Virus record (IMG/VR): IMGVR_UViG_3300031141_000677
Location: 1-32,772 of that record
DNA: 32,772 nucleotides
Source of the DNA: a virus
Strand: one strand, 5' to 3'
Shown here: in pieces, positions 2,596 to 22,420 of the stretch
Numbering within the stretch: position 1 is the first letter of the stretch
Layout of the letters: every line of letters begins with the position of its first letter
Made by a program: the position numbers and the translations under genes
The notes under the pieces: model-generated
Told to the model about the DNA's origin: nothing
Database searches by the model: none
What the model saw: only the letters and a program-made list of their open reading frames with translations

Positions 2596-3279
2596 TTATT
2601 TGGTTATTAGAGCGGCTAAGTTTGCTTGTAACGTTGCATTGTATGACTCGGAAGTATACTTTTTGCTTTTCTTAGCACGTGAACCACGTTCTGGAAGTGT
2701 TCGTGTACCTTCTTTAGTAGTCTTGTCGTTGTAACGAGGATTACCTTTTTTCATTTGTTGATAAGCAGGCGAATTTGCTTTTTTATCAGCGTCGGTAACA
2801 TCCATCTTCTTTGGAGTCTTTTCTTCAAGTGTTATTTCATCACCATCAGGACCTTTTACTTTGTCGCCTTTTTTCTTGCCATTCATTTTAGCTTTAGCTA
2901 CTGCACCGCTGTATGCATTACCTTCGTCCGTTTCTTTTTCTTTACCTTCTTCTGGCTTCTTGCCTGACTTCTTAGCCAGCATTTTTGCAAACGCGGCCTT
3001 TTGTGCTGGACTTTGTGCTTCATTCATATCTGGAGCATTTGTTTCATAATCTAAATGATGATACACACTACCAATCATGTCAGCGGCTTTAGTAATCTTA
3101 GATTGAACCCAACCTTCTAAGCCTTCTTCTTCACTTACGTTCGAAAGCATTTTATGCAAGTGTACTGTGTACTTTGCCATTTTATATAGTTCGGCACGTG
3201 CCATCTGTACTTCATGATCACGTTCTATACCGTCAGCTAGTTCGCCTAAACCTTCAGTTATTTCATTATTTTTCATCAT
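2596..3279 (-). CDS. Lysine-rich helical protein, possible virion or internal head protein
   Basis: A 227-residue protein. An N-terminal helical part contains a block (GWVQSKITKAADMIGSVYHH, about residues 57-76) that I recognise as recurring in marine T4-like phages without a known function. A long Lys/Glu-rich, low-complexity region with KKSGKK and KMNGKKKGDK-type patches follows. The N-terminus (MMKNNEITEG) contains ITE followed by Gly, which would suit a gp21-type prohead protease cut. Two adjacent ATGs (3279, 3276) follow a GGAG site, and the second has better spacing. A late-type box sits just upstream at 3297-3304. A charged internal head or scaffold-associated protein is plausible but unproven. 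Confidence 0.75.
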   Translation of the reverse strand: MMKNNEITEGLGELADGIERDHEVQMARAELYKMAKYTVHLHKMLSNVSEEEGLEGWVQSKITKAADMIGSVYHHLDYETNAPDMNEAQSPAQKAAFAKMLAKKSGKKPEEGKEKETDEGNAYSGAVAKAKMNGKKKGDKVKGPDGDEITLEEKTPKKMDVTDADKKANSPAYQQMKKGNPRYNDKTTKEGTRTLPERGSRAKKSKKYTSESYNATLQANLAALITK

Positions 3280-3296
3280 TAAACTCCGTTACAAAG

Positions 3297-3304
3297 TATT
3301 TATC
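3297..3304 (-). promoter_or_regulatory. T4-type late promoter box (GATAAATA)
   Basis: The minus strand reads AAGATAAATACTTTG, matching the T4 late consensus TATAAATA at 7 of 8 positions. It lies 17 nt before ATG 3279, with room for the GGAG site between. Confidence 0.65.
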
Positions 3305-3992
3305 TTTTAATTGTTTTGCCGCCCATGACATTAGTTTTCATGTCTAGTGCGTTTTTAGCTGTTCCGTCTGCATTAGTTGCTTGTGGTGCTTTTGGTGCGC
3401 CGTATTTTCCTTTTTTAGAAACCTTACGTTTAGCACCAACTACACTTGAAACACTAGCAATAGCTCCTGCACTAGTAGCACCAGCAGTTGCGTCTTCTTT
3501 TACTTTAGGCTTATCATGACTCCAACCTTTTGCTTTCATATCTAAATGATCTTTTTCAACTTTTGCATGCTTGCCTTTTCCTGTCTTAGGATCGTACATC
3601 ATGTGTGGTTCAAACTTTTCTTTAGCGTCTTCGTTAGTAACTGCTTCTGCATGCATTGCGGCCATATGTTTCTTGTACTTTGCAGTACCTTTTTTATGCG
3701 GACTTTTGCCTTCGTTCTTCTTACCTAGTATCTTATCTTTAATCTTACCTTTGGCTTCTTCGCCACCGCCTTCACGTCCAGCTTTTCTTAGCTTGTCCAT
3801 GCCAGCTTTGCCATATTTTTTATTACCAATATGAGCTTGCAACCCTGATTCGTCTACTTTATTCTTTTCATAACAGTCACAATGTTTACAATCTGGTCCG
3901 CATTTACATTCCGTTATAGGCTTACCACAACATGCTTCTGAGCACATTTCTACCTTTGCTTCTTTTACATATATAAATTCACTTGCCTTCAT
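3300..3992 (-). CDS. Basic Lys/Gly-rich protein with N-terminal cysteine cluster
   Basis: 230 residues from ATG 3992, chosen over the upstream ATG at 4010. It has an AAAGGAG site 7 nt before it and forms an ATGA overlap with the preceding gene. The N-terminus MKASEFIYVKEAK is followed by eight cysteines within about 25 residues (CSEACC, CKC, CKHCDC), a metal-binding type of pattern. The rest is very basic and low in complexity (KKGTAKYKKHMAAMHAE, KVSKKGKYGAPKAP), as in DNA-binding or internal head proteins. The upstream neighbour also carries a cysteine cluster. I do not recognise a named family. The capsid-targeting reading of the N-terminus is discussed under findings. Confidence 0.75.
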   Translation of the reverse strand: MKASEFIYVKEAKVEMCSEACCGKPITECKCGPDCKHCDCYEKNKVDESGLQAHIGNKKYGKAGMDKLRKAGREGGGEEAKGKIKDKILGKKNEGKSPHKKGTAKYKKHMAAMHAEAVTNEDAKEKFEPHMMYDPKTGKGKHAKVEKDHLDMKAKGWSHDKPKVKEDATAGATSAGAIASVSSVVGAKRKVSKKGKYGAPKAPQATNADGTAKNALDMKTNVMGGKTIKR

Positions 3993-4270
3993 TTCTTTTC
4001 TCCTTTGCATGTGTCACATTTACAAAATCCACATACGTCATTGGCGCATGTAGGACATTCTTTGTCTCGATGACATTCGTGTCCGCAGGTATCACATGTA
4101 TGTTTGTAGTCATTATTCACATCTAAAAGTCCTGTTTGCTTGTACTTTATATACTTATCATCTAAGACAACTAATTGTGTTTCGGATATGTACGAATGTG
4201 GACACATTAATGTGACCCAAAGGCCGCTTTCGTACACACTGTCTTGTATATATGTCGTGCCTACTATCAT
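3989..4270 (-). CDS. Small cysteine-rich, zinc-ribbon-like protein
   Basis: 93 residues. The C-terminal third carries nine cysteines and two histidines in CxxC-type pairs (CDTCGHECH, CPTC, CGFCKCDTC), as expected for a protein binding zinc or other metals through two or more knuckles. The N-terminal part is not cysteine-rich and has predicted strands. It overlaps both neighbours by ATGA (the oxygenase-like gene upstream, the basic cysteine-cluster protein downstream), so the three are translationally coupled. The function is unknown; a protein-interaction or nucleic-acid-binding zinc module is possible. Confidence 0.75.
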   Translation of the reverse strand: MIVGTTYIQDSVYESGLWVTLMCPHSYISETQLVVLDDKYIKYKQTGLLDVNNDYKHTCDTCGHECHRDKECPTCANDVCGFCKCDTCKGEKK

Positions 4271-4833
4271 TTTAGCAACTGACCTTTTCTATACATAGTT
4301 TTTAAACTGCTTACTGTAAATTCTTCGTTAAATGTTATGCCTAATATAAATCTAGCAACTGACGACGAGTTAGTAACACCGTGTGGATCTCTTGTATCAA
4401 AGCATATAGGAACCTCATAGTTAAGCTGAGCTTCAAGTTCGCTATGTGGATAAAATCGACTTTCTGGAATATCTTTAAAGCGTTCTGCAGGAGATGCTAC
4501 TTTTACTGGGGGTGTATATTCATAACTATCTAAACTAGAATTCTTAAAATCACCAGATATAGGAATATTTATAGCACATCCGCGACCGAAATCAGAATGT
4601 GGGCCTATAATGCCATGCGGGTTGACTAAGTTATATGCAACTGCGCTTATTATTTCATCAGCATTTTTAAATATGGAATCTACTATATCTAATGTTTCGT
4701 TATCGGCGTCACCTGTATAGAACTTAAAACGCCCGGTGCCAAAATACCCCCAGGTGTGATACTGGTCGTATACTCTTTTTTCGAGGCTGTTTTTGTCTAC
4801 AATGAGATCTGGAAGGAGAAAATGTTCTATCAT
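4267..4833 (-). CDS. 2-oxoglutarate/Fe(II)-dependent oxygenase-like protein
   Basis: 188 residues from ATG 4833 (MIEHFLLPDL). The open frame extends to 4986, but that would overlap the upstream gene, which stops at 4865. The double-stranded beta-helix signature is visible: HSD (in GPHSDFGRGCAINIPI) as the HxD iron ligands, a distal His in RDPHGVTNS, and a following Arg in VARFILGI as the 2-oxoglutarate ligand. Many marine T4-like phages carry such proteins, with unknown substrates. No strong ribosome site is seen. It overlaps the zinc-ribbon gene by ATGA. The catalytic class is well supported; the substrate (protein, DNA base or small molecule) is not known. Confidence 0.8.
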   Translation of the reverse strand: MIEHFLLPDLIVDKNSLEKRVYDQYHTWGYFGTGRFKFYTGDADNETLDIVDSIFKNADEIISAVAYNLVNPHGIIGPHSDFGRGCAINIPISGDFKNSSLDSYEYTPPVKVASPAERFKDIPESRFYPHSELEAQLNYEVPICFDTRDPHGVTNSSSVARFILGITFNEEFTVSSLKTMYRKGQLLK

Positions 4834-4864
4834 AACTATATTTATTTTGTTAGCTACGGTAGTA

Positions 4865-5662
4865 TTAAGATACTGGGTTTGTGTCTGCCATATGTTGCTT
4901 AATATCTTTAGCAGTACGTTCAAACTTATGATCTTTATGTTTAAACCCAATGCCGCCGGCCGCTTCCCAGGCATTAATATTAACACCGTAGTCGTCGATT
5001 AGTATGTTTGCTGAACCGTTTTGTGCAGTAGCATACTGTGGTTTGTTGTGTGTAATGTAAATATTCTTAGGTGGAAAAAACGCTAAATTCTTTTTAATCC
5101 ATTCACGCTTATGTGGCTCTGAATTTGGATCATCTGCTAAAGGACTTGTACAAATATTGTATTCGCCTTTAACTTTTTTAATTAATGACAATAGTTTTTT
5201 TGCTTCTGGAAGTAATGGTAACTGTAACCAAAAATCATCAGTATCGCGGATTTTTTGGAGTGCATCACCTATGTCATGTTGTTTGTGAATGTCGGAAAAG
5301 TGATCTACTTTCATTAACTTAGCCCACTCACCAAAGAAGTCAGCAAGAACACCGTCCATATCGACGTATATTTCTGTTGTTTTATTTAATTTGTTAATTG
5401 CTTCGTACATATGCTTATAGTATAACACATGTTTGTTGGTATTGTCAACCATTAACTTAGTTGCTTCAGCAAGCCCTAAGTTAAACAACACGTTGGTACT
5501 TTTGCCTTTTACTTTTTTACTAAGTGTAGGCGGACGACCGTCTTTATCTACATCATAACCTAATTTAGCGGCTTCTATTGATAGTTGATTTACACCTACA
5601 TCAACAGTAGTATTAACACCTTTTACAATGCGGCCATCTTCTCTAATTTCAGAAAACCTCAT
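4865..5662 (-). CDS. HAD-family 5'-nucleotidase-like phosphatase with an extra N-terminal module
   Basis: 265 residues. The C-terminal part (from about residue 95) is a HAD phosphatase of the 5'(3')-deoxyribonucleotidase type. It has motif I YVDMDGVLADFF (Asp101, Asp103), a TSP motif (CTSPLADDP) for motif II, and ILIDDYGVN for the acidic motif IV. Such enzymes remove phosphate from (d)NMPs. The first 85 residues are a separate module (TTVDVGVNQLSIEAAKLGY, GRPPTL) that I recognise as recurring in other marine phage proteins, function unknown. The N-terminus MRFSEIREDG resembles a capsid-targeting peptide. A second in-frame ATG at 5410 would make a HAD-only protein and is preceded by a promoter-like sequence. 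The upstream junction is an ATGA overlap. Confidence 0.82.
   Translation of the reverse strand: MRFSEIREDGRIVKGVNTTVDVGVNQLSIEAAKLGYDVDKDGRPPTLSKKVKGKSTNVLFNLGLAEATKLMVDNTNKHVLYYKHMYEAINKLNKTTEIYVDMDGVLADFFGEWAKLMKVDHFSDIHKQHDIGDALQKIRDTDDFWLQLPLLPEAKKLLSLIKKVKGEYNICTSPLADDPNSEPHKREWIKKNLAFFPPKNIYITHNKPQYATAQNGSANILIDDYGVNINAWEAAGGIGFKHKDHKFERTAKDIKQHMADTNPVS
5419..5448 (-). promoter_or_regulatory. Possible internal promoter inside the HAD fusion gene
   Basis: Minus strand TTGACA (5448-5443), an 18-bp spacer, and TATACT (5424-5419) with an extended -10 TG at the expected place. The predicted start is near 5412, next to the in-frame ATG 5410 that begins the HAD domain. It lies inside coding sequence and the spacing differs from the other six promoters, so confidence is modest. 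Confidence 0.35.
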
Positions 5663-5901
5663 TTACGTGTGCGCCCTCTAAGTCCTTGTGGTATATTAAC
5701 AGCGCCACCACCTTTTTCAGTCATTTTAGGTAAACTGAACCATAGTTCAAACCATTCTTTGTCGCCTGGACGAATGTTTTTTGATTTCATTTGTTTAACA
5801 TTTTTAGCGGCAGCGTCACTAATGTTTTCTAGAGTGTATTCAGTGTACCCCTTATATTCGTTTACACCTGCAAGTTGCTTTATGCGCTCTAGTTCATCCA
5901 T
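5659..5901 (-). CDS. Small conserved phage protein (LERIKQLAG / GLRGR type), unknown
   Basis: 80 residues from ATG 5901, which forms a TAATG junction with the nucleotidyltransferase gene. An upstream ATG at 5916 has no better ribosome site. The protein begins MDELERIKQLAG, a short helical opening that I recall from many T4-like marine phage proteins. It then has a conserved-looking block (IRPGDKEWFELWFSLPKMTE) and ends in a basic tail (PQGLRGRTRK). No catalytic motif is visible. It sits between a nucleotidyltransferase and a nucleotidase-like gene, with overlaps on both sides. Confidence 0.72.
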   Translation of the reverse strand: MDELERIKQLAGVNEYKGYTEYTLENISDAAAKNVKQMKSKNIRPGDKEWFELWFSLPKMTEKGGGAVNIPQGLRGRTRK

Positions 5902-6851
5902 TACTTTGGTACACACTTGTTTACACGCTTGCCTTTGTTTTTACCTGTGCCAGCTTGTGTGCCAGCTTTTTTGAACTTGGGCCAGCATTTTTTAGGTCCT
6001 GCTACTTCTGTTTGAATATCGTTAAATGCTTCAGTAATGTCTGTGCTTTCAATACGGTAACGGTTACCGTGAGCATGAACTTCTTTACCTACCATCATTT
6101 TTAGTATACGAGATAACTTCTCAACATCATCCTGTTTGTCTAAGTAATCCATAATTACATTTTTTATATGCGGAACAAGTGATGCTTTATTTAAAACAAG
6201 CTCGCCTTCTTTCGTTTGCTGTTCTCTTTTCATTTCGCCATATGCATTGATTGCGGCGGCGGCATCATTCATTTGCTGTGATTCTTGTTCAGTAACGCCT
6301 AATGCATCTCTAATAGAATCAAACATGTCTTGTGCAATGCTTTGATTAGCTACACCTTGCTTAAATAAGTCAAACTTATCTTCAAGTGCGGCAGCTCGCA
6401 TTTTACTTGCGCTCATACCTTCAGCACCATCTGCATCAGGATCACGTTGACCTGCATTTACAATCTTGATACTGTTAAAAGTATAGTCTTTGCCGTTGTA
6501 ATCATTTAATAATTTTTCAAACTGTTCTACTCTATCAGAGCCTGCAATGTATACAATATCAGTATACCCTAAACTTTCAAGTTTCTGCATCATTTGAATA
6601 ATAGTTCTAACACCTTCATTACCTACTGTAACATGGCTGCCAAAACTTGCCTTTGCAAATCTAACTTTTTGTTCAAAACTTAGTGGATTCTTTTTCTTAT
6701 CTTGTGTGTGACTTACAAATACAAAATGGTCACCGGGCATAGTCATCATTGCATCAGTAAGTTTCTTATGTCCTATCGTCGGCGGATTCATGCGACCAAA
6801 TGCGGCAACAGCAACCTTACTAGGTGCTTCAAATAACTGTCTTAGTCTCAT
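5901..6851 (-). CDS. Nucleotidyltransferase (cytidylyltransferase/NMNAT-like fold) with conserved C-terminal tail
   Basis: 316 residues. Residues 12-160 form a nucleotidylyltransferase domain: NPPTIGHKK (22-30) carries the HxGH-like motif, and MSASKMR (146-152) replaces the ISSTxxR motif. The family joins a nucleotide to a small phosphate ester (NMN, pantetheine phosphate, sugar or glycerol phosphate), releasing pyrophosphate. The substrate here is unclear. A helical linker (ASLVPHIKNVIMDYLDKQDD) follows, then a basic, cysteine-bearing tail from about residue 287 (GPKKCWPKFKKAG, GKRVNKCVPK) that I recall at the end of unrelated marine phage proteins. It begins MRLRQLFEAPS, with LFE before Ala as in gp21-type cleavage sites. 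ATGA overlap upstream. Confidence 0.82.
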   Translation of the reverse strand: MRLRQLFEAPSKVAVAAFGRMNPPTIGHKKLTDAMMTMPGDHFVFVSHTQDKKKNPLSFEQKVRFAKASFGSHVTVGNEGVRTIIQMMQKLESLGYTDIVYIAGSDRVEQFEKLLNDYNGKDYTFNSIKIVNAGQRDPDADGAEGMSASKMRAAALEDKFDLFKQGVANQSIAQDMFDSIRDALGVTEQESQQMNDAAAAINAYGEMKREQQTKEGELVLNKASLVPHIKNVIMDYLDKQDDVEKLSRILKMMVGKEVHAHGNRYRIESTDITEAFNDIQTEVAGPKKCWPKFKKAGTQAGTGKNKGKRVNKCVPK

Positions 6852-7192
6852 GAGTTGTATGTACCTTTTTTAATTTCGTGCATCTCTTCAGCATAAATCT
6901 TCTTTGCTATGGCCATTCTATCTTTTTCAGTAAAGACATCAGCATCAGTCCTAGCTAGTTCGTATACTTCGACGTACCTTTTTATTGCTTTCTCTACAAC
7001 AGGAAACAATGTTGTTTTTGGGTTAATCTTTTTCTTATTAGCGAAATCAGCAGCCATCTTATCTATCATTGGAAAAAAGTGCTTACGATAAAATATAGGA
7101 TCGTTACGCATGTAGACACATACATCATCTACTATGTCAAAGTTTGGCTCAAATTCGTCTATAGAGACATTGTTAAATTCATTAATTTTCAT
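6848..7192 (-). CDS. Conserved T4-like marine phage protein, unknown function
   Basis: 114 residues from ATG 7192 (MKINEFNNVS). This start follows the previous stop by 1 base and has an AGGAA site; a longer frame from 7249 would overlap the upstream gene. A conserved-looking block, CVYMRNDPIFYRKHFFPMID, followed by a helical region (VEKAIKRYVEVYELA), is one I recall from marine T4-like phages but cannot assign. The first residues (MKINEF, then SIDE) fit the pattern of short N-terminal tags in this cluster. It couples by ATGA to the nucleotidyltransferase. Confidence 0.75.
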   Translation of the reverse strand: MKINEFNNVSIDEFEPNFDIVDDVCVYMRNDPIFYRKHFFPMIDKMAADFANKKKINPKTTLFPVVEKAIKRYVEVYELARTDADVFTEKDRMAIAKKIYAEEMHEIKKGTYNS

Positions 7193-7193
7193 A

Positions 7194-7787
7194 TTACCAT
7201 TTCCTGCATGACCAGTAACGTGCTTTAGTACGTGGTCCTGGATTGTCACAATTATGTCTAGCTCTAAATGAGCGCCTTGCCGCTGGATTATTTTTCTTAA
7301 TCTTCATAGCTTTACCTTTAACACTGCTTCCGCCGTGACCAAAGTTAACTTTCTTGGTGTTTCCTGTCTTAGGATCCTTAACGTATACTTTAAACTTCTT
7401 AACATCGCCTTGCATAGGCTTGCCTAGTTTAACTTTGCGTCCTTGGTATTCTGCTTCGTCCATGATGTCATCTTCATTGTACCACATAGTGCCGTACTCT
7501 GCATAAAACTCATCATCGTCTTCAAACGTTTCTTCATCAATAGCATCTTCATTAGACATTGATACTTCAATATCAAAATCGTCATACCCTTCGGAGAACA
7601 TGTAGGCTGTTAGTCGCTCTGCATATTCGTCTGCTTCAGTTTCTGATAATTCTCTTTGTAATGGAATCTGGTATATAGTTGCGCCTTCAACTGACTCAAA
7701 TACTAATGAGTTAGGAAATATTGACTCGTCTAGCGACTCTGTCAGTCCTTCTTTTTTGTCCATTACTATGTTTACAAAATGTTCCAT
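7194..7787 (-). CDS. Acidic protein with conserved C-terminal RARHNC module
   Basis: 197 residues. An acidic N-terminal half (EDAIDEETFEDDDEFYAEYG) is followed by a basic C-terminal module. That module has EYQGRKVKLGKPMQGDVKKF, a KVYVKDPKTGNTKKVNFG segment, and the ending RRSFRARHNCDNPG ... YWSCRKW. The module recurs, to my knowledge, at the ends of several marine T4-like phage proteins, and its function is unknown. The paired Cys/His (HNC, SCRKW) could bind metal. The ATG at 7787 has an AGGA site. The acidic half plus basic half resembles scaffold- or head-associated proteins, but this is inference. Confidence 0.75.
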   Translation of the reverse strand: MEHFVNIVMDKKEGLTESLDESIFPNSLVFESVEGATIYQIPLQRELSETEADEYAERLTAYMFSEGYDDFDIEVSMSNEDAIDEETFEDDDEFYAEYGTMWYNEDDIMDEAEYQGRKVKLGKPMQGDVKKFKVYVKDPKTGNTKKVNFGHGGSSVKGKAMKIKKNNPAARRSFRARHNCDNPGPRTKARYWSCRKW

Positions 7788-7795
7788 TATAATTC

Positions 7796-8134
7796 CTAAT
7801 GATTTAATTTAATACTTGTGACTGCACCATTGGTATACGTTACTACTGTTCTAACCCAAACATAGTTACCAGTAAAGTTATATATTGATGCACCTGTAGT
7901 ACTCGTTTCCGTAGTACTTATAATATCAAAATAATCGCTGTTAGTAGGTGTAGTAGCTAATGTGCCTTGCATCTTAATAGTTCCTATAAAACTATTTAAA
8001 TCATATTGCACAGTATGAATGCCGTCACTACGTCCGTAGTAACCATCACCTTTAAATGCTGAGCCAGTAATAGTGACAACTGTACTATCTCCTGGGTGTG
8101 TGTTTGTTGTTAATATTGTTTCGCTGTTTGCCAT
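7796..8134 (-). CDS. Small beta-rich, probable virion surface or fibre-associated protein
   Basis: 112 residues from ATG 8134 (MANSETILTT). A longer frame from 8179 would run into the upstream gene. The composition (Thr, Ser, Gly, Asn; alternating hydrophobic pattern) and blocks such as GYYGRSDGIHTVQYDLNSF and YNFTGNYVWVRTVVTYTNG are typical of small beta-sandwich proteins I recall near tail genes in pelagic phages. No signal peptide. A GATAAATA-like sequence lies only 5 nt upstream, too close for a normal leader. Structural assignment is by resemblance only. Confidence 0.65.
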   Translation of the reverse strand: MANSETILTTNTHPGDSTVVTITGSAFKGDGYYGRSDGIHTVQYDLNSFIGTIKMQGTLATTPTNSDYFDIISTTETSTTGASIYNFTGNYVWVRTVVTYTNGAVTSIKLNH

Positions 8135-8138
8135 ACAA

Positions 8139-8810
8139 CTATTTATCAATATCGGACTTGTTAATAAATTTATCGACACGCCTAATTGCGCCTCCGATTA
8201 TGATACTAACAAACTGTAATATTTTCATATCTCTACAGTAAAAGTACATTCCATTAACATAATTGTTAGCTTCAACTAGATTTAAAAATACCCTTCCAGC
8301 TTTAACTTTGTCTGGATTCTTTCTAGCCCATCCTGCAAACGAACTATCTACGTCAGTACCAACAGTAACTTTATATTCAAATTCAATTGGACTGTTGCTA
8401 ATAATAACATTAGGCTCTAGTAAGTGTACAGAACTACTGTCAGCTGGTTTCCAAATTTCTGTAACATGATCAACTGTACTTACTAGATGTTCGATCCAAT
8501 AAAGGTCATTTGAGTATACTACTATAGTCGGACTTTCAATTCTTAGTTTATAACTGCTTTGTTTTTGAGTTGAAAACTCATTGTACAGATGACATGCGTG
8601 GATCAGCGTAGATATACTAATAGTCTTAGTTCGCTGGCCCCATTGATCAGTAATAAATCCGCGGTTATCTAATTGTGTGTAGAAGTCGTCAAGTACGCCG
8701 CGAGCTTTAGAGAGGTGTTTCTCTCTAAAGATCGGCGCTATCAGACAAGTTATCGATACTTTGTAAAGGTAAGTATCGTAAAATAACTTAGTTGTCTCAA
8801 ATTGTTTCAA
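8139..8810 (-). CDS. Conserved T4-like marine phage protein, unknown function (TTG start)
   Basis: 223 residues. The start appears to be TTG at 8810 (MKQFETTKLFYDTYLYKV): an AAGAAG site precedes it, and the opening MKQFETTKLFY is of a kind I recall in marine T4-like phages. It overlaps the end of the clpA-type gene by 14 bases, suggesting coupling. Blocks include IFREKHLSKARGVLDDFY, VYSNDLYWIEHLV and a C-terminal YVNGMYFYCRDMKILQFVSI. It has no membrane segment or recognisable catalytic motif. The product is unknown. Confidence 0.7.
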   Translation of the reverse strand: MKQFETTKLFYDTYLYKVSITCLIAPIFREKHLSKARGVLDDFYTQLDNRGFITDQWGQRTKTISISTLIHACHLYNEFSTQKQSSYKLRIESPTIVVYSNDLYWIEHLVSTVDHVTEIWKPADSSSVHLLEPNVIISNSPIEFEYKVTVGTDVDSSFAGWARKNPDKVKAGRVFLNLVEANNYVNGMYFYCRDMKILQFVSIIIGGAIRRVDKFINKSDIDK

Positions 8811-11037
8811 CTATTTCTTCTTTAACTTCGGACACTAAAACGATCTCGTCGTCTTTAATGCTAATAGATACAGCGCCACCGTTCTTAAGAGCGCCGAATA
8901 ACATTTGTCTTGATAGCGGACGTTTAATGTCTTTATCAATAACACGTTGTAATGGTCTTGCACCCATCTTAGCATCAAAGCCTTTGTCAACTAAGTAGTC
9001 AAGTGCTTCGTCGGTAATTGTAATGCTAATGTTTTTACTATTAACCATTCCTTTAAGTTCAACAAGGAACTTACCAACAATCTTCATCATTACTTCTTTA
9101 GTCAACTTGCCAAACGTAATAACACCGTCAAGTCTATTTCTAAACTCAGGAGCAAAAAACGCTTTTAATGCAGTATCGTCTTGTACGTTTTCTGCACTTT
9201 CATTGAAGCCAATAGTGTTCTTTTCTGCGTCACGAGCACCTAAGTTAGTAGTAAGAATTAGTACACAGTTACGTGCATCTGCTTCTTTACCATTAGATCC
9301 TGTAATCTTACCATTGTCCATAACTTGTAACAAGATTTGTGATACATCTGGATGTGCTTTTTCAATCTCATCAAGCAGAAGCACACAGTTAGGATTTTCT
9401 TGCAATTTAACAATAAGTTGTCCTGCATTATCCTCGTGTCCTACATAACCTGGAGGGCTACCAATTAGTTTAGCAACACTATGGCGCTCTTGATATTCAC
9501 TCATATCAAACCTTACTAAGTTTACACCAAGTTGCGTAGCAAGTTGTTTAGCTGTTTCTGTCTTACCAGTACCAGTTGGGCCCATAAACACAAAGCTACC
9601 AATTGGTTTATCATCAGGCTTAAGACCTGCTTGACTAACAAGGATCTTATCAACAATGCCTTCAATAGCATCGTCTTGTCCGTATACAACTTTCTTAAGA
9701 TTAGCTTCAAGATTCATCAAGTTTTCAGTTTCTTTTTCAGCAACTTGCTCTTCAGGCATTTTAATGATCTTAGCAAGTTCAAACTGTACACTTGCCGCAT
9801 CAATAACTTTTTCACCTTCGTGTTCTTTAAGGTTAAAGCGTGAACATGCTACGTCAATTAAGTCAATTGCTTTATCTGGCAACTTCTTGTCGTTCTGATA
9901 CTTAACACTTAGCTTGATTGCTTCTGCAATAGCTTCGTCGGTAATAGTAGTATCATGAAACTCTTCGTAATACTTCTTAATACCATGTAGGATATCACTA
10001 GTTACTTCTACACTAGGCTCATCAACTGTTACACGCTGGAATCGACGCATTAATGCACGATCCTTCTCAAAGAACTTACGATATTCTTCCCAAGTAGTTG
10101 AAGCAACAACTTTAATGTTACCTTTAGAAAGTACAGGCTTGAGCATGTTAGCAAGGTCATTGCTACCACCGCCACCTGACGCACCGGCACCGCTCATCAT
10201 GTGTGCTTCGTCGATGAATATGATAGTCTTGCCTTTCTTCTTAATACCAGCAAGTACTAATTTAAAGCGTTCTTCAAAGTCTCCACGATACTTACTGCCA
10301 GCAAGCATAGCACCAATGTCTAAGTTATATACACGATATTCTTGTAAAAACTCAGGACATTCTTTGTTAACAATCTTGTACGCAAGTCCTTCTGCAATAG
10401 CAGTTTTACCAACACCTGGATCACCAACAAGCAATACGTTATTTTTCTGTCGACGGCCCAACGATAGTGCAATACTATCAAGCTCTTCAGCTCGGCCAAT
10501 GACGGGATCAATTTTATTGTCTTCAACCTCACTATTAAGATCAGTTGTAAATGCACGTAGCGCACGATCAGCTTGGCTTGCATTTTCGTCTGCAAACTCT
10601 TCATCTGTATCAGCGTTAATAAATTCGTTAAACTTTTCTTTGTCTACGCCGCCTTTTTCAAGCCAGTAGCAACCTACACTTTTCTTTTCACTTAGCACAC
10701 TAAGAATAACGTCAGTTAGTTCAATATTAGCTCTACCGCTGAATAGTGTTTGTGTAAATGCTCTGTTTAATACACGTTCTACCGTTTGTGTTTTCTTAGG
10801 CTTGTATTTTGTAACTTCCATTTTCTGGTCGTCACAGTTATTCTTAAGATGGTGTTCTAGATTTGTTTTTACATAATCTAAGTCTGCACCAAAACCAGTA
10901 AGTGCTGCCGCCAACTCTTGCTCACATAGCATAGCATATAATAGATGTTCAATTGTTACATATTCGTGTTGTAATTTTTTAGCATCCTTCATAGCCTTTT
11001 CAAAAACTACTTGTAATGCTTCGCTTGGTTCTACCAT
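8797..11037 (-). CDS. clpA: ClpA-type AAA+ protein unfoldase
   Basis: 746 residues, near the usual ClpA length. An N-terminal Clp repeat domain (1-140) is followed by two AAA+ modules. D1 has Walker A GDPGVGKT (205-212), Walker B IIFIDEAH (272-279) and pore loop GSKYRG (248-252). D2 has Walker A GPTGTGKT (486-493), Walker B LLLDEIEKAH (553-562) and pore loop GSPPGYVG (526-533). There is no ClpB-type middle coiled coil. IGF at 609-611 sits where ClpA carries its ClpP-docking IGL, so docking to a ClpP is plausible. No clpP is in the window, so it would have to use host ClpP or one elsewhere. Its own promoter is at 11072-11100. It lies next to a DnaJ-like gene. Confidence 0.95.
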   Translation of the reverse strand: MVEPSEALQVVFEKAMKDAKKLQHEYVTIEHLLYAMLCEQELAAALTGFGADLDYVKTNLEHHLKNNCDDQKMEVTKYKPKKTQTVERVLNRAFTQTLFSGRANIELTDVILSVLSEKKSVGCYWLEKGGVDKEKFNEFINADTDEEFADENASQADRALRAFTTDLNSEVEDNKIDPVIGRAEELDSIALSLGRRQKNNVLLVGDPGVGKTAIAEGLAYKIVNKECPEFLQEYRVYNLDIGAMLAGSKYRGDFEERFKLVLAGIKKKGKTIIFIDEAHMMSGAGASGGGGSNDLANMLKPVLSKGNIKVVASTTWEEYRKFFEKDRALMRRFQRVTVDEPSVEVTSDILHGIKKYYEEFHDTTITDEAIAEAIKLSVKYQNDKKLPDKAIDLIDVACSRFNLKEHEGEKVIDAASVQFELAKIIKMPEEQVAEKETENLMNLEANLKKVVYGQDDAIEGIVDKILVSQAGLKPDDKPIGSFVFMGPTGTGKTETAKQLATQLGVNLVRFDMSEYQERHSVAKLIGSPPGYVGHEDNAGQLIVKLQENPNCVLLLDEIEKAHPDVSQILLQVMDNGKITGSNGKEADARNCVLILTTNLGARDAEKNTIGFNESAENVQDDTALKAFFAPEFRNRLDGVITFGKLTKEVMMKIVGKFLVELKGMVNSKNISITITDEALDYLVDKGFDAKMGARPLQRVIDKDIKRPLSRQMLFGALKNGGAVSISIKDDEIVLVSEVKEEIVETI

Positions 11038-11071
11038 TATTTCTTTTACCTTTAAATTTAATGTACTGTTT

Positions 11072-11100
11072 ATTATAACAACAATATGCTAATATGTCAA
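11072..11100 (-). promoter_or_regulatory. Sigma-70-type promoter for the clpA-type gene
   Basis: Minus strand TTGACA (11100-11095), 17-bp spacer, TATAAT (11077-11072): perfect consensus boxes in the gap between the dnaJ-like and clpA-type genes. Predicted start near 11065, leader about 28 nt. Confidence 0.85.
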
Positions 11101-11103
11101 GAC

Positions 11104-11901
11104 TTACTTTAGTAAATTGTCTTTGATCTCTTTTAATTTTATTAAGTCAACTGGGTCGTTAAGTAACGGTGTATATGCGTCAAGTGTTACAAACATGTTG
11201 CCTCGCCTGTTTGTATTTACTTCTGGCAAGCCGTGACCTGTAACATTAAACGTTACTCCGGGCTTTGTACCAGCCGGTATTGTTAACCTAATTTTAGTTC
11301 CTTCTAGTGTCGGTATATCATCCTGACATCCTAATAACAAATCTATTACACTAATCCTGTGACGCATAATTAAATTGTGCCCGTCGCGATCAAACATAGG
11401 ATGTCGCTCTACTTGTATTTGTACAATTAAGTTACCACGAGGTCCGGGTATTATTTCTTCTCCCAGTCCTTGATACCTAACCTGATTTCCGTCTATTGCA
11501 CCAGGGGGAATATTAATGTCGACTGTCTCTTCTCGTCCGTTTCGTAGTCTAAATGTCGCAAGTACTTGTTTACCAGTTACACATTCTTCTAGTGTAATAG
11601 CAACAGCAATAGTTACATCTGGGTTTTGATGATGTTGCCGTTGATTTCTAAACCCAAACTGAGCAAATATGTCGCCAAAGTTGGCATTCATATTTTGAGT
11701 ATTATACTGTGCTTGTGGATTATCGTACTGTTGGCGTTTTTGGGGATCTTTTAAAGTAGAGTATGCTTCGTTAACTTCTTTGAACTTCTCTGCATCACCG
11801 CCCCTGTCAGGATGATGTTTCATACTTGCTTTTTTATATGCATGTTTAAGTTCGTTGTTATCTGCGCCTCTGTTGACGCCTAGTATATTATAGTAATCCA
11901 T
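11104..11901 (-). CDS. DnaJ/CbpA-type co-chaperone
   Basis: 265 residues. An N-terminal J domain (MDYYNILGVNRGAD ... KKASMKHHPDRGGDAEKF) carries the HPD motif at 30-32 that stimulates DnaK ATPase. A short Asn/Gln-rich linker (about 66-95) replaces the Gly/Phe region. The two C-terminal substrate-binding beta domains follow directly (VTIAVAITLEECVTGKQV, LIVQIQVERHPMFDRDGHNL), with no zinc finger, so it is of the CbpA (class B) type. It probably feeds host DnaK. T4-like and other marine phages sometimes carry J proteins. No strong ribosome site is seen before ATG 11901. The clpA-type gene follows under its own promoter. Confidence 0.93.
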   Translation of the reverse strand: MDYYNILGVNRGADNNELKHAYKKASMKHHPDRGGDAEKFKEVNEAYSTLKDPQKRQQYDNPQAQYNTQNMNANFGDIFAQFGFRNQRQHHQNPDVTIAVAITLEECVTGKQVLATFRLRNGREETVDINIPPGAIDGNQVRYQGLGEEIIPGPRGNLIVQIQVERHPMFDRDGHNLIMRHRISVIDLLLGCQDDIPTLEGTKIRLTIPAGTKPGVTFNVTGHGLPEVNTNRRGNMFVTLDAYTPLLNDPVDLIKLKEIKDNLLK

Positions 11902-19312: not shown

Positions 19313-19341
19313 ATTATACATTAAACCCATCCTAAAGTCAA
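19313..19341 (-). promoter_or_regulatory. Sigma-70-type promoter for the small membrane protein and gp44
   Basis: Minus strand TTGACT (19341-19336), 17-bp spacer, TATAAT (19318-19313). A tandem direct repeat, TTATACATTA twice (plus strand, about 19304-19323), covers the -10 region and the start site. Confidence 0.83.
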
Positions 19342-19487
19342 GTCTTAACTTCTAATAGTTTTACAATTTTAGTTAGTAATTTTCTAATCTTTACTAGTTC
19401 TTTTATGTCCGAGGACTCTTCTGGCTCATTAGGCTTTACTAGCTTTTGAATCTTTGTACCTTCAGCTTCAACCTGTGATAATTTCAT
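19338..19487 (-). CDS. Small charged protein, hypothetical (49 residues)
   Basis: The frame starts at ATG 19487 (MKLSQVEAEGTKIQ) with a GGAAAGAG site about 4 nt upstream, overlapping the HAD gene by 20 nt. A longer frame to 19532 would lie deeper inside that gene. The C-terminal half is a Lys/Leu-rich amphipathic helix (DIKELVKIRKLLTKIVKLLE), possibly a coiled coil. No family recognised. Confidence 0.6.
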   Translation of the reverse strand: MKLSQVEAEGTKIQKLVKPNEPEESSDIKELVKIRKLLTKIVKLLEVKT

Positions 19488-21862: not shown

Positions 21863-22420
21863 TTATCTCAGGAACTCGGTCCAGTCCAGGTCATACTGGA
21901 TTGAGTCTACTTTGTGTACGCCTATTAAGTATAGTACATAACTTGCTACACTACTTCCTCTACCTACACCCCAAACAATATCATTCCCACGCATAAAATC
22001 TACTAGATAAACCATATAGCGTAATAGATCATCCATACCACGACTAGCAAATTCAGCATATTCTTCATTAACTCTGGACCATTCTTTAGAGTATTGTGCA
22101 GTTGCTAAACTATCAGATTGTAGTTTTTCTTGTAGTTTTTCTAATAACCAACCTTTTATGTCTATGGCTTTATACGCATCAGGCATAAACCATTCTGACT
22201 GTAATACACCATCAAATTCTTTTTGGTCTACATCTAGTGGAATATATGGAGTAAGTGCAGGTCTGCCTTGATCTTCCATAGCTTTATTAAACTTGGATAT
22301 ATCATCACTAGGTTCACATAATACAACATGACACTTGTCAACATGACCTGAATAGATCATATCAACTAAGTCTTTATTTGTAAATCGGGGTATTCCTAGA
22401 GGGTCTGTTTTTATCAGCAT
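21863..22420 (-). CDS. Protein with DnaE-like GRGSS segment, lacking the catalytic aspartates
   Basis: 185 residues. The C-terminal segment WGVGRGSSVASYVLYLIG ... YDLDWTEFLR mirrors the part of bacterial Pol III alpha (family C) just before its catalytic PDxDxD motif, where the nucleotide triphosphate is bound. The protein stops there, so it cannot be a polymerase alone. The N-terminal 130 residues have no family I recognise. A nucleotide-binding or regulatory role is possible. The promoter at 22427-22455 has its -10 only 6 nt from the ATG, so this message may be leaderless. Confidence 0.65.
   Translation of the reverse strand: MLIKTDPLGIPRFTNKDLVDMIYSGHVDKCHVVLCEPSDDISKFNKAMEDQGRPALTPYIPLDVDQKEFDGVLQSEWFMPDAYKAIDIKGWLLEKLQEKLQSDSLATAQYSKEWSRVNEEYAEFASRGMDDLLRYMVYLVDFMRGNDIVWGVGRGSSVASYVLYLIGVHKVDSIQYDLDWTEFLR

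Follow-up and report, generated by a model that had tools for sequence, protein, structure and literature searches.

Predicted head-packaged proteins with glutamate-ending leaders, and a copy of the capsid N-fist among them, in an uncultured T4-like virus

Does a run of genes in an uncultured virus encode proteins that are carried into the phage head and trimmed there by a prohead protease? The window, which is the whole 32,772 nucleotides (32.8 kb) of IMG/VR record IMGVR_UViG_3300031141_000677, contains six neighbouring minus-strand genes (2596 to 7787) in whose products a leader or a boundary ends in hydrophobic-x-Glu. Packaging in the prohead and cutting by a gp21-type protease are likely for these proteins because of a fixed glutamate, late-type promoters, the gp21 and gp23 cut site of a relative, and homologs found in virions; for this particular phage the conclusion comes from comparison. 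The relatives comprised 34 viral loci, one of them from the 267.8-kb contig G001, which was examined piecewise. Judged by its gene content, the window comes from a marine-type myovirus that resembles T4: PhoH, ThyX, a clamp loader, a ClpA-like protein, DnaJ, spanins, an endolysin, and proteins classed by PHROGs as "virion structural," several of these names following from the families. Known phages gave no DNA-level match to the window, and an NCBIfam search gave no credible match.

A sequence-only reading of this DNA had picked out five N-termini as similar to T4 capsid-targeting peptides. All five exist, on the minus strand and at the best-scored start codons; predicted cut sites accompany those of the genes at 2596, 3300, 4865, and 5901, and the gene beginning MKINEFNN (6848 to 7192) has no credible site. 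The sequence-only reading had overlooked the E15 boundary LAGVNE-Y (5659 to 5901), IMDE-A (7194 to 7787), and, in gene 3300 to 3992, both a second site, VKE-D, and a copy of the capsid N-fist. The features are as follows.

2596 to 3276, minus strand: predicted late gene with leader MKNNEITE, then a conserved domain DHEVQMARAELYK...EGWVQSKITK and a Lys-rich tail
3253 to 3276, minus strand: predicted leader MKNNEITE, cut before G9
3297 to 3304, minus strand: late-promoter-like GATAAATA, ahead of 2596 to 3276
3300 to 3992, minus strand: fusion protein with N-terminus MKASEFIYVKEA, leader MKASEFIYVKE, Cys/Lys-rich middle, second site KVKE, a copy of the capsid N-fist, and a basic tail with GGKTIKR at its end
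3960 to 3992, minus strand: predicted leader MKASEFIYVKE of gene 3300 to 3992
3438 to 3494, minus strand: N-fist copy DATAGATSAGAIASVSSVV, immediately after Glu166
4865 to 5662, minus strand: NT5C-type (5'-deoxynucleotidase-like) protein with leader MRFSEIRE at 5639 to 5662 (Pfam NT5C, 8.1e-10; phrog_2643, 8.4e-23)
5659 to 5901, minus strand: 80-aa protein with boundary LAGVNE at residues 10 to 15 (nucleotides 5857 to 5874), then YKGYTEY
5901 to 6851, minus strand: nucleotidylyltransferase with leader MRLRQLFE (6828 to 6851), motifs GRMNPPTIGH and SASK, and a C-terminal KCWPKFKKAGTQ...NKCVPK module (phrog_3041, 1.6e-55)
6848 to 7192, minus strand: operon gene MKINEFNN, without a convincing cut site
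7194 to 7787, minus strand: fusion with a basic C-terminal part after DIMDE (nucleotides 7455 to 7469), AEYQGRKVKL...RARHNCDNPGPRTKARYWSCRKW
8140 to 8147, minus strand: late-promoter-like GATAAATA upstream of the run, ahead of 7796 to 8134

The bare motif alone proves little, because [LI]xE occurs within the first 18 residues of 50/250 G001 genes versus 33 ± 5 in shuffles, and genome-wide LxE enrichment was set aside as weak proof. In G001, however, eight consecutive genes of the cargo cluster carry [LI]xE. Across the 34 related loci, an LxE conserved in the first 12 residues belongs mostly to the families of 2596 to 7787 or to their separated modules, whereas the conserved-LxE score is 0 for ClpA, DnaJ, the neighbour of 889 aa, and most of the remaining families. 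Clustering and comparison across relatives give the motif its meaning; in a single sequence it is weak.

The signal is strong when relatives are compared: their leaders vary, or merge into fusions, and the glutamate stays constant. Glu8 is unchanged in 10/10 orthologs of the 2596 family, and the nucleotidyltransferase keeps its Glu8 in 15/15 phages, including the cultured Melnitz and S-SZBM1, as it does the catalytic motif residues. Members of the nucleotidase family differ in the sequence and length of what precedes the glutamate (MRFSEIRE-DG, MRWHEISKLSE-GVG, and a long leader ending YLRKVQE-DG), and leaders of the APPGGW family vary likewise (MKITDLME-A and MKLTDLSNEFDNINE-A). The C-terminal part of 7194 to 7787 is a stand-alone gene in relatives, where it starts MTKTFKDFLTE-A or MSKTFKDYLKE-T, very near the MKTYQEFIAE-A that the T4 genome encodes for IPII and IPIII (internal proteins II and III).

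The genes of the run are preceded by late-type promoters. In G001, (G/T/C/A)ATAAATA is located 13 to 40 nucleotides upstream of many structural genes and also lies upstream of the 3300 ortholog. Of the copies of the late motif on the coding strand of the window, 5/8 lie within 5 to 35 nucleotides of a start, far above expectation (P ~2e-6); one is ahead of 2596 to 3276 and another ahead of 7796, from which the run continues through overlapping genes. The form TATAAATA, tried as the window late promoter, occurred once, below chance, and GATAAATA is the better form for the group. The contig G001 also encodes an S77 prohead protease, gp21 (4.5e-27), and a gp23 with the predicted cut WLNE-TATAGSTSAGNVATLNRV, also rendered WLNE-TATAGSTSAGNVATL. 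The T4 gp23 site is FLTE-A, with a known cut after residue 65 (PMC9958956). Corresponding sites in the other gp23 proteins examined are LLTE-A, FLAE-A, FLSE-A, FLGE-I, ILTE-T, MLNE-V, and ILTE-A, and these gp23 sites share one sequence pattern with the window leaders.

Homologs of the cargo are found in cyanophage virions. Virion mass spectrometry detected the NMNAT-like protein or cytidylyltransferase in S-CREM2 (PMC10665884), S-SZBM1 (PMC9146016), and S-SCSM1 (PMC9602691). The leaders of these homologs are MKNFSSFLTE-A (S-CREM2 gp154), MRFRQFIIE-A (S-SZBM1_140), and MKSFLQFLKE-A (S-SCSM1_91). Further S-CREM2 virion proteins with leaders are a SAM hydrolase (MKDFDSFLEE), gp13 (MKDLHSFLTE), a kinase (KRFDAFLTE), and a Cas9-like protein (RFASFMAE). 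Three proteins of these phages, S-CREM2 gp160, S-SCSM1 ORF29, and S-SZBM1_139, contain the KCWxGY module that the window nucleotidyltransferase has at its C terminus (as KCWPKF), and all three are listed virion proteins.

What might such cargo do? The Pfam NT5C domain of gene 4865 to 5662 passes its cutoff (39.3 bits versus 24.8), a class assignment by sequence. For the nucleotidylyltransferase (5901 to 6851), a sequence search gave no solved relatives, and fold comparison was therefore used. Its model has a core with a predicted local distance difference test (pLDDT) score of ~88 and a disordered leader and C-terminal module; the nearest folds are CoaD and NadD/NadM (best E, 1.8e-6), and HxGH-type and SxSxxR-type motifs are present, in keeping with a nucleotidylyltransferase fold. 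The model of the 2596 to 3276 protein is of low confidence (mean pLDDT, 53).

The larger finding at this locus is the fusion protein 3300 to 3992, whose last 64 residues begin, after Glu166, with DATAGATSAGAIASVSSVV, the predicted mature gp23 N-terminus of the group. The gp23 of the window phage lies outside the fragment, and gp23 proteins of relatives were used for the comparison; the window-type module reads E-TATAGGTSAGAIATV, versus WLNE-TATAGSTSAGNVATL in the gp23 of the relative. In T4, the N-fist (residues 66 to 91), the part that is copied, touches four capsid subunits, passes from the inner to the outer side when the head expands, and lacks order in the five portal-facing subunits (PMC9958956, PMC7136217). 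A scan of viral contigs for the module gave 297 relatives, of which 80 were kept and 60 were nonredundant. A glutamate directly precedes the module in 60/60 of the latter, and among the 34 relatives found without a pattern containing that residue, P1 is Glu and P3 is I/L/V/M/F in all 34. The leaders before the module are unrelated and are 3 to 669 residues long.

We also searched the proteome of each phage with the N-terminal 32 residues of its own gp23, using shuffled queries as the null. One clear extra copy each was found in S-CREM2 (gp160; score of 95 versus a null maximum of 61), S-SCSM1 (S-SCSM1_97; 83 versus 48), Syn9 (96 versus 49), and T4 (gp61.1; 69 versus 46); the G001 copy is borderline (54 versus 53) and is backed by family data. 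S-CREM2 gp160 and S-SCSM1_97 are virion proteins by mass spectrometry. Every copy resembles the gp23 type of its own phage group; within families, gp61.1 homologs did not track gp23 strictly and were similar to it at group level only. T4 gp61.1 is annotated as hypothetical, and at least 1386 phage records contain relatives of it. It consists of a T4-type leader, a fist copy, and a Lys-rich tail (MKTFKEFIKE-DMVAGDSGGNPENISIGTTSGAVVNKGP); its residues 3 to 39 align by phmmer with gp23 58 to 94, leader included (E, 0.0067). Other Straboviridae have gp61.1 relatives joined to the end of a different domain; LFE-DMVAGD and ITE-DMIAGD are examples of the boundaries. The literature searched, which left out most subscription papers, contained no account of such copies.

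Two similar-looking sequences, Melnitz gp30 (L060 12688 to 13206; TED-APANASGSAV) and HTVC008M 115347 to 116426 (QED-IANVAGDGAV), are possible short fist copies that were set aside, their scores lying inside the null. An in-frame upstream ATG of S-SCSM1_97 (L067 5122 to 5307) yields MDKTDRVIQLIRE-MIAVGAGG before the fist copy, and its annotated start is probably too late. The family phrog_696 ("major head protein," 263 aa) matches S-CREM2 gp160 and S-SCSM1_97 through the N-fist-like start only, and its name looks like a misannotation carried over from gp23.

The run from 2596 to 7787 is, on these grounds, probably a late gene set for proteins incorporated into the prohead. Short leaders of 8 to 15 residues with a hydrophobic-x-Glu end would carry the proteins into the assembling prohead, where a gp21-type (S77) protease would cleave after the glutamate, as happens in T4 to gp23, gp24, Alt, and the internal proteins. 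Among the cargo are the nucleotidylyltransferase, the 5'-nucleotidase-like protein, and Lys-rich basic proteins that would remain with the DNA, and we infer that the packed enzymes may enter the host. The second cut in 3300 to 3992 would free a fragment with the gp23 N-fist copy first and the basic tail after it. That fragment could bind the shell at the usual N-fist docking places, or at empty fist positions near the vertices, and so tether shell to DNA or seal the shell. Docking of the 3300 to 3992 copy on the shell is a tentative proposal. For three T4-like groups (Straboviridae, to which T4 gp61.1 belongs, Kyanoviridae, and the uncultured marine group of the window), we consider it possible, if still somewhat short of an even chance, that a dedicated small protein copies the N-fist of its own capsid, enters the prohead, is exposed by the protease, and docks as a plug or DNA tether, which would be capsid mimicry by cargo.

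Several observations weigh against packaging and cutting or against the fist proposal. The head targeting and gp21-type cutting claimed by the sequence-only reading are well supported by comparison, but not for gene 6848 to 7192, and the protease whose lack was to count against the claim is encoded by G001 and absent from the 32.8-kb fragment; nor is there a gp23 among the fragment's open reading frames. Most window leaders are of a shorter type and do not show the Tyr4/Phe7 typical of T4 internal proteins. The pattern given for IPIII, with hydrophobic positions 4 and 7 and processing positions 8 and 10, does not fit these shorter leaders; it does fit the cyanophage leaders and the ortholog that begins MTKTFKDFLTE-A. 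The authors of the S-CREM2 (PMC10665884) and S-SCSM1 (PMC9602691) studies allow for carry-over of the nucleotidyltransferase. In S-CREM2, a strict T4-type leader is present in 4/28 nonstructural or unnamed virion proteins versus 1/167 undetected ones (P = 0.0016), with a pattern composed after those N-termini had been seen, and in S-SCSM1 it does not predict virion proteins (1/17 versus 1/186; P = 0.16). The same pattern in T4, as a control, gives three matches, namely two internal proteins and gp61.1. S-SZBM1_191 and S-SZBM1_192, with textbook leaders, are not named among the detected virion proteins in the available part of that report, and the own-gp23 search gave no fist copy in S-PM2 or S-SZBM1.

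Could LxE near the N terminus reflect chance, or a common way for helices to begin, in what are ordinary cytoplasmic late proteins? The modest excess of the bare motif in G001 and the siteless gene 6848 would fit that explanation, but an invariant glutamate with shifting leaders across families, the concentration in the cargo cluster, and the detection of homologs in virions make it very improbable. A closer competitor, which we rate as plausible though short of an even chance, accepts packing in or on the head and has the proteins work there only, as structural glue or in DNA condensation, rather than as delivered effectors. Lys-rich tails, a fist copy that points to the shell, and the presence in virions of two proteins with the fist and three with the CWxGY module agree with this, whereas enzyme domains that retain catalytic motifs are difficult to explain for pure structure, and T4 is known to eject its internal proteins and Alt (PMC9026906). 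The fist module might instead be a tag that holds precursors on the inner side of the immature shell, not meant for real N-fist sites of the mature head. The T4 N-fist region is inside the prohead before expansion (PMC9958956), and in many long fusion proteins the module is C-terminal; however, the Glu boundary would sever the fist from its partner, so a tether of that kind would be odd, and we regard the tag as unlikely. Packaging with cutting after the glutamate stays the preferred reading.

Other observations concern the surroundings of the run. A ClpA/ClpC-like AAA+ gene beside a DnaJ-like gene (8797 to 11901) lies just upstream of the cargo run and is kept in relatives. A small open reading frame at 19338 to 19487, outside the run, has another leader-like start, MKLSQVEAEGTK. 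A 185-aa protein (21863 to 22420) matches the DNA polymerase family phrog_11127 and, with a GRGSSVASYVLYLIG motif, resembles a bacterial-type replicase fragment. Short basic C-terminal modules (KCWxGYKKxGT...NCV, NASGEKAKMYHWCANMKSGKK, EGKSPHKKGTxKYKxHMAA, and RARHNCDNPGPRTKARYWSC) are exchanged between adjacent genes in relatives; they are located at window positions 5904 to 5993, 3684 to 3713, and 7248 to 7265 and in loci L004, L011, and L014. In S-CREM2, gp6 and gp12 to gp15 (L053 3837 to 13331) are a SAM hydrolase, a Cas9-like protein, a kinase of APH type, and small proteins, and almost every one has a leader of the capsid-targeting type. These could form a packaged-enzyme island, with the virion SAM hydrolase and Cas9-like protein acting on host defences at entry.

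The leaders give a sequence-based reason for metabolic enzymes recurring in cyanophage virion proteomes, where carry-over stayed possible, and the leader rule could predict head cargo in abundant uncultured marine phages. Among known systems, T4 IPI to IPIII and Alt, with a gp21-processed capsid-targeting sequence (CTS; PMC9026906), likewise have a short N-terminal leader ending in (L/I)xE on basic and enzyme (Alt) cargo, and the prohead protease family is the same as in the relative of the window phage. Unlike these, the window leaders are mostly eight residues long, of the type M(K/R)xxE(L/I)xE, and stand on fusions and swapped modules with other cargo enzymes. S-CREM2 gp154, S-SZBM1_140, and S-SCSM1_91 share a homologous domain with a Glu-ending leader; theirs were found in virions, and the authors mention no leader. 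The ejection proteins cut by the phiKZ and SPN3US prohead proteases (PMC9026906) are also injected head cargo cut after Glu, in a separate phage lineage, a likeness by description. T4 gp61.1 (NP_049649, phrog_1823) and its fused Straboviridae homologs (phrog_2086) share with the window protein a CTS-type leader or fusion, the Glu boundary, an own-group fist copy, and a basic tail, but the window copy follows a 166-residue Cys/Lys-rich part and its fist sequence type differs. T4 gene 61.1 thereby becomes a concrete, testable question, namely whether an N-fist copy sits in the shell of the best-studied phage head and for what purpose; N-fist copying, with its match to the gp23 of the own group, would link the cargo of marine phages to the textbook phage T4.

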